64,000 bases of DNA from Mansonella perstans (Eukaryota; Nematoda; Chromadorea; Rhabditida; Onchocercidae). Where the stretch lies: NCBI GenBank assembly GCA_037074765.1, contig JBAMDO010000108.1:1-64000 (forward strand), written 5' to 3'. The notes beneath the pieces were generated by a model, which saw nothing but the letters and a program-made list of their open reading frames with translations, did not search any database and was not told the DNA's origin. This document shows, piece by piece, positions 12,259-47,489 of the stretch (the first letter of the stretch is position 1; each line of letters opens with the position of its first letter). A program made the position numbers and the translations under genes.

Positions 12259-13716
12259 TTGCGTTAAGAAAATGACTTAGATAACAATCAATTATGATTA
12301 TTTATCAAAAGTCAGTATAGATTAAAGAACAATTAATTTCAATCAAATTATTGAGGAAATTAGATTTCAATTTCATGAAATTTTATTTATTTATTTATGT
12401 TACTGTTTGAATGCAATTTGATTAGATGAATAATGATCGAAACGATGGCATCCGACCAACGTTTATCGTTTTTCTCTTCTCTTCAATTCCTCTCTCGGAA
12501 TACAAAACTTTCAGATAAATGATGCGAATTAATGATTCCTGTTGAATGTTTCACACAATTTTCCGATTTCAATTTATTACCCCAAAAGAGAAAAAAAATT
12601 TTAAAAATCAGAATTAAGCTAATTTTAAGAAATTGTTTGATAATAACGAAATAATTCAATGAAAATAGGTAACGGTGACAATTTTATAGGGAAACGGTGA
12701 AAATTGTCAGAAAATATTATTTTTGGATGAGAAATTATTTTTTCCAGAGATAAAAATTAAAAATATAATTTGTTTGCATTGTTTTCGAATAATTTATAAA
12801 TGTCATTGATGAATTCCTTAGAGTCCTCCCTTTGTTTCAAGAAGAATTCATAAAAACTTCCATTCATTTGTTAAGATAGAGAAAAAAAACGAAAATATTA
12901 TTGTAAGTCAAGCAACAGCAAACAATTAAATAAAAATGTAGCTAAATTTAAGCTTTACAAAATCATTTCAGAATTTTTAAATTAATGTTTTGTGAATAAT
13001 TGAAATTACAATAAAGATTTAATTATTTTTTTTAAAAGTTAAAGCTTAAAATTTAACTACTTCTAAGAACTTTTTTTCGCTTTCAATATTTAATCTTAAG
13101 AAAAAATTTGAAAAAGAAAATTAAGCTTATCAGAGTGCTTCTGTCGCGAATTTCATAACGCGAAACTTCCAATAACTCAATAAATTAAATTGTAAATAAA
13201 TGTTAATAACATTGTAAGGTATTCAACTAAAGTTACATTTTTAGATTTATTTCCATGTTCTTTGTTGATATGTAAATTCACACCTTTCGTATAGCAATAG
13301 ATTAAGATATCTATCTACAACAAAGGTTTTGTATTGTACTGTCAATCCTCTCTCCTACAGTAAGCTAACAAAGCAGCAGGTACGGCGCTATACTATCATA
13401 CAAAGGGCCCATTGTCTTAAGCAATTAATTCCCCCTCTTCACCAAGTGTAAACGTCAATCTTTCCACCAATAACATCTTTGTTTATTTATTCTGACAAGT
13501 ACTTTGGTATCGCTTTGAAGACGCTGTTGTTGTAAATCATCTATTCTCAACCATAATTAATCCCTCCTTTATCACTTTAACGTTAGGATCTTTATATTAA
13601 GCTTTAATCCCGCCTCTTCTACGACTATATATAGACACTTGATTCACATGCACCTTTTGTACATTCGTGCATTGTAGATACTCATACTCAGTGATTCGCT
13701 AGTACGTTCTAATAAA

Positions 13717-13734
13717 GGTTTAATTACCCAAGTT
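13717..13734 (+). promoter_or_regulatory. SL1 spliced-leader-like sequence inside the left LTR-like arm
   Basis: GGTTTAATTACCCAAGTT is identical to the first 18 of the 22 nt of the nematode SL1 leader, which then continues TGAG while this copy reads AGTT. It follows directly after AATAAA, and an ATG occurs 7 nt after the match (13,742), like the 5' end of a trans-spliced mRNA. The right arm carries a mutated counterpart (attacccaagtt on the - strand near 13,981-13,996). There is no SL RNA gene body or splice donor after it, so it is not a functional SL RNA gene. Confidence 0.7.
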
Positions 13735-13802
13735 AGTTAGGATGCCAATCATAATCGTCAAAAAAGAGTTCTTTAAATTTGTGTCGCAAAAAAAATTTTT
13801 AG

Positions 13803-13970
13803 TTGGACATTTCAATCGAGGACCTCCCCAACCTTGTTAGTAACATCAAACAAGCTGGAAAAATATTGGCTGACATCGATCTCTCGCAAGAATTTCGCGA
13901 CAAATACAAATATTGGAGGTCCTCGACGTGCGACACAAATTTAAAAAACTCTTTCGGGGATTATGGTTGA
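13803..13970 (+). pseudogene. Gag-like coding fragment between the inverted arms
   Basis: A 55-codon open frame sits between the arms and has ordinary protein composition (…LVSNIKQAGKILADIDLSQE…). It has no ATG: the frame follows a TAG and starts TTG GAC ATT. The last third runs into the right arm and is not original coding sequence. Position just inside an LTR suggests the amino end of gag, but I see no domain that identifies it. Confidence 0.35.
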
Positions 13971-14244
13971 CATTTTAATTAACTTGGGTAATTTAACTTT
14001 ATTAGAACGTACTGGCGAATCACTGAGTATGAGAATGTACAATGTACGAATATACGAATGTACGAAAGGTGCAGTTTGACGCTGTTGCTATACAAAGGGT
14101 GTGAATTTAAATATCAACAAAGAACATGGAAATAAATCCAAAAATGTAACTTTAGTTAAATACCTTACAGTGTTATTAACATTTATTTACAATTTAATTT
14201 ACTGAGTTATTGAAAGTTTCGCGTTATGAAATTCGCAACAACTT

Positions 14245-27190: not shown

Positions 27191-27929
27191 TGTCGTAACT
27201 TCGCTAACCGCATTATGCCTCGGTAAGTGAATTGGATGTTTGCGTTCCTCATCTAGTTCCGAATTTTCCAGTTGACTGTGGTCTCCATAACTTCAGACCA
27301 TTGCAGTACAAATTCCACTCTTCCTTTTCTTCCTTGTTAAGTCCTTCCGTCTGCGCTCGTCCTATTAGCACCTATTTGGTTAATTTAAAATCCTCCGACG
27401 TCAGTTGTTTCACTTCTACCGATATCGGTTGTATCGATATCATCTTATACCTTGTTGTGAGTTTAATAAATTTAAGAGCCCGAATAGTGATTCTTACAAG
27501 CTGAACCACTTGCTGAAGCGACTTCAATCTATTAGCGAATACTGTGTTACGCCATTCGTTTGAGAGGCGACCTTTGCAACAATTCGTTCTTCCTTTTCTC
27601 TAAATTCTTTTGTTGATTGATATTGGCGTCATCTGCTTTCGGGTTATGTTAACCAGGATGGCCCTTTTCCCATAGCTTGTGTTGTCTAAGCTTTGCGTGA
27701 GAAAGTCCTTTAGTTGCTCTATTGACTGGATTATCTTCATTTTGTACATTCGGAAGAAAAAATTTACCTTTCGTATTTCTTCTGTCCGGTTTTGTATTAA
27801 TTTAGATAGTAATTTTGACCGACTTTTTAACGCTCATTTCGATTGCAATACTCTGATTTTTTCGAAATCCAATTGTTTTATAATATCTGAGAGCTCTATG
27901 GTCATCTTCAGTATCTCGATAGTGTCTGA

Positions 27930-28120
27930 TTCTTTATCGTTCGCCATTCTTCGTTATTGTCTTCATCGAGGATTTGATCCCAAGAATTATTTCTTCTCCA
28001 GAAGTTTTAGAAAAATAGTTTGAATCGGATCATTACGGATACCAAAAATCCTAAACGATCATATTGCGAAAGAACGAATTGCAGGAGACTTCGTTTGCTG
28101 AGTTCTTGTTCGATCCATGG
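27930..28120 (-). pseudogene. Reverse transcriptase / RNase H boundary remnant
   Basis: On the - strand, 28,069-28,010 reads [20 protein letters not shown] followed by a stop and NFWRRNNSWDQILDEDNNEEW. This segment after the RT core is characteristic of Pao/BEL polymerases. I could not locate the YxDD box by eye; the RT core further upstream is badly decayed. Confidence 0.8.
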
Positions 28121-40364: not shown

Positions 40365-42955
40365 ATGACATTTATAGTAAACATAAGTATGCATTTATCA
40401 CTGTTCTCATTCCTATTCTTACTTTTCTTTTTTAATAATAACAACATATCAGCAATTCCGATTGATAATGGTGTTGAAGGTGAACCTGAAATAGAATGTG
40501 GTGCTACTTCCCTAACAGTTAATTTCAATACTAGAAATCTATTTGAGGGACATGTATACGTAAAAGGACTTTATGAGCAAGATGAATGTCGTTCAGATAG
40601 TACTGGACGAGAGGTTTGTATTCCTTCTTGAATTTTTCATTTTTGAATTTTTTTTTATTAACAAGCTGTAATTTGAAATGTAAGAGAAAAAAAGAAAACC
40701 TAAATTTGTTAATAAATAATCAAATTTGTTGATGATTGCATTAATTTTATAAATTTAACTGTTAGAAATTAGCATTATTAATGCTATGAACAATTTTAAG
40801 AAAATAATTTTAAATGAAATTAATTAATTTGGTAACGAAAATAATACAAATGAGGAATTTTGAAGGGAAGTATATATTTTAGCACAATTTAATTTATTTA
40901 TTCAGTAGCCATAATTCTTTTGCACAAAATTATTTGGTCAGTTTTGTTTTGATTTTAAATTTTCAAGCAGTGGAATGAAAAAATGGATCTCATTATTATT
41001 ATTATCATTGAAAAATTTCATTATCATTATTATTATTGAAAAAATTTCATTATCACTATTACCGTGTCTTTTCATTATCATTATTTTATGATTGAAGTAT
41101 TGTGCAAATGGTTGAGGTTATCATTATCGCCATTCCGAACAGAAAGAGTTTGCAATTGATTTTCATTATTTACCATTACCTTTGTTTTTTTATTTAATTT
41201 AATTTTATCCGATAGTAAGATAGGTTAAAGGTTATATGCATTTAGGTCTTTTTTTTAAACTGAAAATTCTGATTAATTATGAAAAATGAAAATAATTGAA
41301 ATAGCTAATGATTTCAAGCTTCTATGAAAAGAAAAATTGCTACTAATATATTCGATATTTCATTTGTCCAATCTGTCGATTAAATTAAAATTTTTGAAAT
41401 TCCAATTTAAAAATTAAATCGTCCTTTTACTGAATGTAAATGAAATTGGTAAAAGCCAAATAAATAAGAACACAATTGAAATTTTTAAAAGTTAAATTTA
41501 AAAATTGATACTATATGTTTATTTATTAGATTATAGCACAGTAGTATCATACTGATACTAAGGTATCATAGAGTTGCACTCTTTAATTTAACTATGTTTT
41601 TAGGTAGCTGGGATCGAATTACCGCTTGATTCGTGTAATGTTGAACGAACACGTTCCTTAAATCCTCGTGGTGTGTATGTAACAAGTGTAGTTGTCATTA
41701 CCTTTCATCCAAAATTCATTACAAAAATAGATCGAGCATATCGTATACAATGTTTTTATATGGAAGCTGATAAGACTGTTAGTACACAGATTGAAGTATC
41801 CGAAATGACCACTTTATTTCAAACACAAGTGGTACCAATGCCTGTATGCCGATATGAGGTTTGAAATTTGTGAACGAATTGCAATTCATGAAGATAGTAT
41901 TTTTAAAGAATAATTTATAATTTCATGAAAAAAAATTTTTAATGTTTTGATTAATTAATTTAATTTAATAAAATTATATATTTTTTTAAAGATTTTGGAA
42001 AATGGGCCAACTGGCCAACCTGTTCGATTTGCAATGATCGGTGATGCTGTATATCATAAGTGGACTTGTGATTCGGAAACTACAGATACCTTCTGTGCAT
42101 TGGTACATTCCTGCGTTGTAGATAATGGTAAAGGTGATACAGTGCAAATCTTAAATGAAGATGGCTGTGCCTTAGATAAATATATACTCAATAATCTGGA
42201 ATATCCTACAGGTAAATGAAATAATTGACAAATGCAATTTAATTGTTAAATTTTATAAAATATTTCAGAATAGTTCAAATTCCTGAACTTCAACTGACTT
42301 TTTTTTTATTGAAAATTTACTAATTTCTATTTTTTTTTGCAGATTTAATGGCTGGTCAAGAGGCTCATGTTTATAAATATGCAGATGAGCCAGAGCTTTA
42401 TTACCAATGCCAGATTAGTATAACGATTAAAGAGCCAAATACCGAATGTCCACGACCACAATGTTCGGAACCACAAGGATTTGGTGTTGTAAAATCAGCT
42501 GCTGCACCAGCACCTGAAGCTTCACCACTTTCTCCAGAAACCATACGATTATTGAAGAAGCGATCTATTAATAGTGACAATACGGTGGATGTTAGGACTA
42601 GTTTCAGCGCACTTGATATAATGGAACAGGTTTATTTAATTAAAATAAAATTTTTTTTTGTATCGAAAATTTTTCCATTTAAATTTTATCACTTAAATAT
42701 CAAATAAAGCTATCAATTTAAATATTGCTGAAAACCAAATTTTAGAATTCGAATTTTTCAACTAAGCGTTTTTCATCATTGCCAAATGATCGATCAATGA
42801 AAACGTTACCGTACTCTTCTCAACAGTCTAGTGATATCTTCTGTATTGCATCAAATGATATATTATTTATCATCTTGTTTGGTGCTATATTTACTATTGC
42901 CTGCGTACTTTTCATTACTTTCGCCACCTATTTCACCAATTATTTTAAATCATAA
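40365..42955 (+). CDS. cut-1: Cuticlin-1-like ZP-domain cuticle protein
   Basis: Five exons join in frame: 40,365-40,613, 41,604-41,858, 41,992-42,211, 42,343-42,629 and 42,746-42,955, giving 406 aa. The start could also be the second Met (40,389), which gives a cleaner signal peptide (MHLSLFSFLFLLFFF). The mature part begins near IPIDNGVEGEPEIECG. A ZP domain follows to about residue 282, with the cysteine pattern and stretches such as FNTRNLFEGHVYVKGLY, AYRIQCFYMEADKTVSTQIE and YHKWTCDSETTDTFC, which are close to nematode CUT-1. Next come an Ala/Pro linker, a dibasic processing site KKRS (residues 313-316), and a membrane anchor in the last exon (about residues 376-398). This is the standard layout of a secreted ZP protein that is cleaved from its anchor and assembles into insoluble cuticlin, typically in alae or dauer-stage cuticle in C. 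elegans. A paralog is possible. Confidence 0.93.
40614..41603 (+). other. Intron 1 of the cuticlin gene (990 bp)
   Basis: Donor gag|gtttgta, acceptor gtttttag|gtagctgg. It is the largest intron of the gene, against 84-133 bp for most others. It contains an imperfect ttattattatcattgaaaaa repeat at about 40,990-41,090. No other gene is seen in it. Confidence 0.85.
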
Positions 42956-46813: not shown

Positions 46814-46895
46814 GATCAGGTGGCCGAGTGGTTAAGGCGATGGACTGCTAATCCATTGGGGTTTCCCCGCGTGAGTTCGAATCTCATCCTGATCG
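46814..46895 (+). tRNA. tRNA-Ser (anticodon GCU)
   Basis: An 82-nt cloverleaf: acceptor GATCAGG pairs with CCTGATC, followed by discriminator G. The A box is TGGCCGAGTGG and the B box GGTTCGA-like (GAGTTCGAATC). The anticodon stem GATGGA/TCCATT-type encloses the loop CTGCTAA, giving GCT. A long variable arm (TGGGGTTTCCCCG) is typical of serine tRNAs. There is no intron. It reads AGC/AGU serine codons. A short T run at 46,910-46,913 can serve as the RNA polymerase III terminator. Confidence 0.95.
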
Positions 46896-47489
46896 CCTGC
46901 AAAACAAAATTTTGTGGTTACTGTGTCCATACTAAAAACATTGTTAATTTAAATTTGTTTTGTAATTTCTGACAATATACAACCTTTCTTCACTGATCAC
47001 TTCATTTCATCAAATCCTTAAATGTTGCATGTGTGCATATATTCTCCCACGCAACTGTTTTCTTTTTTCTATTCCAGTTTACAGAATTCACTGATCATCA
47101 TTAAGAAGAGCAGATAAAATGGGTTGATCAACATCAGTTGATTGCACCGGTTATCCATGGATAGTGTTATCAAGCGGAACGGCAGATAGAAAGTTCAGTA
47201 TTTTGATGATCCTTTCTATTTGAGAAGAGAAAAGGGTAAAACGCCTTGGAACTGTTGAAATATATATCAAAATTTAATGTCTTGCGAAGAAACTTCTTTT
47301 TACAATTAATTTCTGTTATCTTTTAAATAATAATACAGTTCCCTTCACAACACTTAATCGGTCAGTGTCACTACATCTGGAAACATATGCATGACATGAC
47401 TCATGGCATGAAACTTCTGCATAAGAAACTAAATTAATCTCTCAAATGAAGAACATATTTATATTTCATTTATCACACAAATCACATCA

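Follow-up and report, generated by a model that had tools for sequence, protein, structure and literature searches.

Host spliced leader SL1 as a candidate R region in the LTRs of BEL/Pao retrotransposons of Mansonella perstans

The closest described system comes from Brugia malayi, for which the accessible parts of the report give 120 SL1 copies outside the SL RNA arrays; half of them (60) have a PAO element no more than 1 kb away, sometimes with one copy at each side of the element on the same strand (PMC7181701). The pattern was explained there by expressed PAO RNAs that had received a leader and inserted into the genome together with it (PMC7181701). In Caenorhabditis elegans, SL1 is carried by a spliced 2.4-kb RNA of the Gypsy/Ty3 element Cer1, the 8-kb RNA of which is not trans-spliced at that site (PMC3315495), and about 30% of the Iso-Seq reads from transposable elements (TEs) in Hydra bear a spliced leader (PMC12220107), as far as the available sections of these papers go.

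Here we describe an SL1 block lying inside an LTR, located in a window of 64,000 nucleotides (positions 1 to 64,000 of contig JBAMDO010000108.1 of Mansonella perstans) and followed through the 75.7-Mb assembly of 539 contigs. The initial annotation had reported the start of SL1 directly after an AATAAA, an ATG 7 nt past the match and a mutated counterpart in the opposite arm, all of which are present, the counterpart lying beside a TTTATT (Table 1). It had also judged the match to exceed chance, in agreement with a search for the 22-nt leader with up to three mismatches, which returned one match in the whole window and 0 in 100 dinucleotide shuffles. The LTR-like arms that it had recognized are real and inverted, with 13142–13300 and 14082–14240 being 94% complementary and a second pair of segments, 13656–13717 and 13997–14058, 90% complementary; the LTR itself extends over 13142–13902 rather than 13142–13788. 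An ordinary two-LTR element is not borne out, as neither a pol gene of its own nor direct LTRs accompany the inverted arms. Because no interior separates its two LTRs, the window copy, which was assigned to BEL/Pao by LTR similarity alone, is a decayed, dead LTR relic whose pair is inverted and truncated. Elsewhere, the window contains a Pao peptidase fragment (PF05380, E 3.1e-10, one stop) at 27917–28099 (−), about 14 kb from the SL1 LTR, an ORF with a cuticlin C-terminal domain (PF25301), as befits a nematode, at 42348–42707 (+) and a tRNA-Ser(GCT) at 46814–46897 (+).

Table 1. Features of the SL1-bearing LTR and of its inverted partner in the window
Feature	Position	Strand	Remark
Solo BEL/Pao-type LTR with SL1 block	13142..13902	+	TGTCGCGAATTT...AATTTCGCGACA; ends judged against LTR pairs elsewhere
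U3 part of LTR	13142..13710	+	
TATATATA box	13626..13633	+	
AATAAA polyadenylation signal	13711..13716	+	directly 5′ of SL1
SL1, first 18 of 22 nt	13717..13734	+	GGTTTAATTACCCAAGTT; final four nt (TGAG) lost
U5 part of LTR	13735..13902	+	includes ATG at 13742
Second LTR	13915..14240	−	edges approximate; truncated, inverted, internal U3 deletion
Mutated SL1 block of second LTR	13980..13997	−	GTTAAATTACCCAAGTTA
AATAAA of second LTR	13998..14003	−	reads TTTATT on plus strand

The exact 22-nt SL1 occurs 266 times in the genome, and the reversed pattern used as a control not once. AATAAA stands 0–6 nt ahead of the leader in 149 of these copies (control 0), with a spacing of 0 or 1 nt at each of the 100 sites listed among the 149. 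An SL RNA gene signature accompanies 69 copies, 67 of them on a single contig (C518), and another 32 are preceded by CAAC, as are the inner units of tandem LTRs. Provided that nothing is counted twice, 16 copies fall outside these three classes, and the six of them that were retrieved (L124, L126, L128, L129, L133 and L134) have an altered signal or other sequence before SL1. Genome-wide, exact 22-nt SL1 is found without the SL RNA intron, as a trans-spliced exon would be; in the window, 18 of the 22 nt remain. The donor of the SL RNA genes in this genome reads RTAATTGAATG, and SL1 followed by GTAAAC, tried as an alternative gene signature, gave 0 matches. The 67 SL1 RNA genes form an array (C518:7301–28034) with a spacing of mostly 307 bp, and no Rfam match to 5S rRNA was obtained in the 3.1 kb of it that were scanned.

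Whether approached from the upstream or the downstream side, LTRs of the family carry the leader at the same place. The window stretch 13620–13800 matches 29 genomic places, two of them inside the window, and 24 of the other 27 matches stop at query position 113–119, either within the SL1 block (98–119) or where it finishes. A 160-nt query restricted to U3 and ending before AATAAA (40 of 101 candidates scored, 30 loci cut) retrieved AATAAA followed by SL1 at all 30 loci, with an edit distance to SL1 of 0 in 23, 1 in five and 2 in two. A query restricted to U5 (40 of 57 candidates scored) led to nine upstream stretches, fetched among places not previously collected, and in each of the nine SL1, with at most one change, follows AATAAA (seven) or ATTAAA (two). 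SL1 is present in both LTRs of the pairs compared, between the polyadenylation signal and U5, where an R region would lie, and it follows AATAAA in each of seven U3 clusters. The block thus belongs to the family as a whole and keeps one position in the LTR, as the initial annotation had anticipated; copies without it, or with it randomly placed, which had been named as the contrary outcome, did not appear among the 30 loci reached from U3.

Several features identify the genome-wide family as BEL/Pao LTR retrotransposons. PF05380 (Pao peptidase) matches 106 genomic fragments and lies within 7 kb of 28 of the 100 listed AATAAA–SL1 sites (of 149), on the same strand in 27 of these 28, and on C35, C40, C114, C131 and C384 an SL1 site is found on each side of Pao. 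The LTRs of pairs have the termini TGTCGCG...CGACA, a primer-site-like TGGTGCC follows the 5′ LTR by 8–9 nt, and four of six pairs are flanked by 5-bp target-site duplications (AGCGC on C4, CCTTG on C466, AATAT on C215 and CTGGA on C535); of the remaining two, the C472 pair has flanks that do not match and the C19 pair is not readable. Stop-free Pao frames of about 2400 aa were noted at C61:14717, C309:16346 and C333:28881.

The edges of SL1 coincide with changes of sequence partner. The 127 LTR sites compared (block edit distance at most 6, at least 100 nt of U3) fall into 7 U3 clusters, defined on the 120 nt before AATAAA, and on the U5 side into 8 groups with at least two members, the most frequent of which is combined with five of the seven U3 clusters; these groups, made by single linkage on CAACTCAA-rich sequence, are rough. 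Individual pairs illustrate both directions: L054 and L079 are similar before SL1 and unlike after it, and L053/L044, L102/L128 and L067/L111 are similar after SL1 and unlike before it. When all 89 sites whose first SL1 is exact are compared, tandem LTRs included, 150 pairs share U3 yet are at most 50% identical in the 30 nt past SL1, and 55 of 2468 pairs from different clusters are at least 80% alike after SL1 (shuffled control, 1 in 20000). In tandem LTRs the 30 nt after the first SL1 are inner spacer and not true U5, hence the 53 single-SL1 LTRs were also counted separately. They yield 50 same-U3 pairs (at least 80%) with at most 50% identity after SL1, in which 27 loci take part; of 781 cross-cluster pairs, 5 are at least 80% alike after SL1, and these involve 7 loci. 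Clusters 0 and 3 account for 48 of the 55 cross-cluster pairs, and the U3 clusters are related farther upstream (0 and 3 at 83% over 250 nt, 1 and 2 at 79% over 144 nt). Exchange of the sequence after SL1 is well documented by these counts, and exchange of the sequence before it less so.

The element on C535 reads as a clear case of a mixed element, in which a U3 resembling that of family A is joined to a different interior. Its LTR matches family A at 91% in a match that ends with its second SL1, and only 194 nt of the first 1000 nt of its interior match family A (70%), whereas family-A interiors match one another at 95.7–99.3%.

At its 5′ edge, SL1 nt 1 directly follows AATAAA(N) or CAAC, and its 3′ end abuts many different sequences. 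Inner tandem units likewise start exactly at SL1 nt 1, as we would expect if cDNA had run off an RNA initiated with SL1. A purine (G or A) comes after SL1 at 84 of the 89 sites, many of them related, and at L154 the leader connects to an AG within U5; both observations are no more than suggestive of trans-splicing at an AG. In some LTRs (L101/L155, L109/L144, L110/L160 and L114/L142) the number of SL1-like units ranges from 5 to 10, most of them 60 nt apart, and these LTRs can be read as harbouring a leader-based tandem repeat. The two LTRs of the C4 element (L139/L140) are identical over 702 nt but for a duplication of TTTGAG just past SL1 in the 3′ LTR; slippage explains this pair equally well, so that such duplications were set aside as proof of splicing at an inner AG.

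The initial annotation had taken SL1 and the ATG behind it for a copy of the 5′ end of a trans-spliced mRNA. TATA-like boxes lie upstream of AATAAA: 19 of the 26 rows for the window family have one in the bin at −80, and, in the largest family, near −160 in 27 and near −170 in 29 of 50 rows, where one row may count in both. With boxes some 80 or 160–170 nt upstream of AATAAA, the DNA does not simply put SL1 at the transcription start. The ATG was dropped as a piece of a copied mRNA, as the family copies displayed do not have it as a feature.

The reading towards which we lean is that the 22-nt host SL1 constitutes the R region of these BEL/Pao LTRs, is at least partly supplied by trans-splicing and is used for strand transfer. 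Transcription would begin ahead of SL1, within U3. The host leader would be trans-spliced onto the AG at the close of the SL1 copy of the 5′ LTR (TTTGAG, then a purine), giving an RNA that begins with SL1-U5, and the AATAAA situated ahead of SL1 in the 3′ LTR would direct the RNA end to SL1 or just after it. Reverse transcriptase would copy U5 and SL1 and run off the SL1 5′ end, and the resulting strong-stop cDNA could anneal to the SL1 found at the 3′ end of any RNA whose LTR is of this kind. SL1 would be renewed from host RNA in each cycle, and a leader held in common would let elements swap sequence before or after it, in keeping with the changes found at the SL1 edges. In a related clade, where a tree documents decay by descent, renewal would have ceased. 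We advance more tentatively, as a proposal that could readily fall either way, that R is not the element's own but is taken from the host spliced leader in every cycle and that any elements of the SL1 type may exchange U3 and U5 by way of this host-derived leader. Of the origins offered by the initial annotation, capture by reverse transcription of a trans-spliced RNA fits best; a role of SL1 as R was not among them.

In favour of SL1 as R count its place after AATAAA in 149 of 266 copies, the 30/30 and 9/9 retrievals, the adjacency of Pao, the edges, the exchanges and the contrast in variants between first and inner units (below), together with the upstream TATA box, the purine after SL1 and the L154 junction. 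Other points count against it. The usual splice acceptor is TTTTCAG, to which TTTGAG would be a weak match. A transcription start 30 nt downstream of the TATA box would imply an R of ordinary kind, longer than SL1 and enclosing it. C61, with a Pao frame of 2452 aa, is absent from the 100 exact SL1 sites listed (of 266). The relatedness of the U3 clusters, together with a mere five cross-cluster pairs among single-SL1 LTRs, slightly reduces our confidence as well.

The strongest competing explanation, which we regard as unlikely, holds that SL1 is an element-encoded leader, captured once by an ancestor, inherited since then and selected for translation or as a trans-splice acceptor; it would not be renewed from the host, and R would be a longer stretch starting near the TATA box. 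Besides the TATA box upstream of SL1 and the ancestry that U3 clusters share farther upstream, the window family argues for such a history, as SL1-like blocks are plainly inherited in it. A tree of 26 U3s of this family contains a supported clade of 12 rows (99/98), with the window copy outside it, in which the SL1 block decays stepwise by descent. Since this clade shares a decayed block, exact SL1 is not needed by all elements; L128, of the same family, has retained it. Four of the 29 places matched by the window stretch (L021, L029, L032 and L036), in which the block is readable, were left out of the tree by the row filter. Conservation of SL1 within family A is moderate, which also favours an inherited leader: the mean pairwise difference is 0.019, where 22-nt windows of U3 have a median of 0.054, and 15 of the 152 such windows equal SL1 in conservation. 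In-family conservation alone was accordingly rejected as proof of renewal.

The distribution of variants may speak against a leader inherited from one capture. The first SL1 unit is variant in 7 of the 30 loci of the U3 search, and none of these variants is common to another element, whereas the last inner unit has a shared variant in 10 of 19 multi-unit LTRs. The contrast rests on few events, because those ten trace to about two changes, one substitution in eight LTRs and one in two. With the nine U5-found LTRs added, shared variants number 4/39 in first units against 10/19 in last inner units (Fisher P 0.0008, a rough value given that the LTRs are related). The shared variants of first units are two, one present in L151 and L174 and the other in L179 and L180. 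L150, the partner LTR of L151 on C472, has an exact SL1, although no target duplication was found for that pair, and the variant of L179/L180 may be inherited. An element-encoded leader is also at odds with the complete divergence of like-U3 LTRs from the 3′ edge of SL1 onward and with the start of inner units exactly at SL1 nt 1 after CAAC.

That SL1 is a mere passenger, brought in when some Pao RNAs with a trans-spliced leader underwent reverse transcription and integration, and without a role in replication, seems improbable. SL1 on expressed retroelement RNA is known from Cer1 (PMC3315495) and Hydra TEs (PMC12220107), and the SL1 copies beside Pao in B. malayi were read in this way (PMC7181701), as the accessible text of these sources has it. 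A chance passenger, however, should be confined to the 5′ end, and the SL1 of M. perstans lies within both LTRs, after AATAAA, in LTR pairs and in each of the 7 U3 clusters. An SL RNA gene inserted into an LTR is a very improbable source, and was rejected: 69 sequences with the gene signature do exist, but the intron start RTAATTGAATG is absent from all AATAAA-linked copies displayed. Chance resemblance or an assembly artefact, for which nothing was found in favour, is refuted by the empty result in 100 shuffles, by 0 matches to the reversed pattern against 266 to SL1 and by the constant position in 30 of 30 loci.

In the general view, an LTR retrotransposon has an R region of its own. The evidence assembled here points instead to an R that would be a host RNA exon added by trans-splicing. 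If so, retrotransposition would be tied to the trans-splicing machinery, and the arrangement would explain how elements cope with the trans-splicing of their own RNA. It would also provide a route by which promoters (U3) and primer-site ends (U5) could be exchanged between elements.

An ordinary R region lies between a U3 with AATAAA and U5, is present in both LTRs and is the point at which U3 and U5 switch. SL1 agrees with it in position, in its presence in both LTRs and as a switch point, and differs in being a host spliced leader exon of only 22 nt. Of described systems, the Pao-flanking SL1 of B. malayi shares the location beside Pao and outside SL RNA arrays (PMC7181701); in M. perstans, by contrast, AATAAA is followed at once by an SL1 that forms part of the LTR, sequence partners change at the edges of this SL1, and the variants of first copies are unlike those of inner ones. 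The accessible text of the B. malayi report makes no mention of LTR position, R or strand transfer, the term "R region" having 0 occurrences (PMC7181701). An 18-mer of the Brugia HhaI repeat gave 0 matches in the present assembly at up to one mismatch and 4 at two (control 1), an absence that probably sets this genome apart from Brugia. Cer1 is likewise a nematode LTR element that uses SL1 trans-splicing, but a placing of SL1 in its LTR is not reported in the available sections (PMC3315495), and in Hydra the leader is described there at the RNA level only, with none in LTR DNA (PMC12220107). The accessible parts of four further papers (PMC4558846, PMC5240408, PMC3156134 and PMC9911081) contain nothing closer, and no earlier description of SL1 as an LTR R region was found in the literature searched, of which subscription journals mostly lie outside the coverage. 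SL1 beside Pao was thus already known from B. malayi, on the accessible text of that report (PMC7181701), and what appears to be new is the candidate role of SL1 as R.
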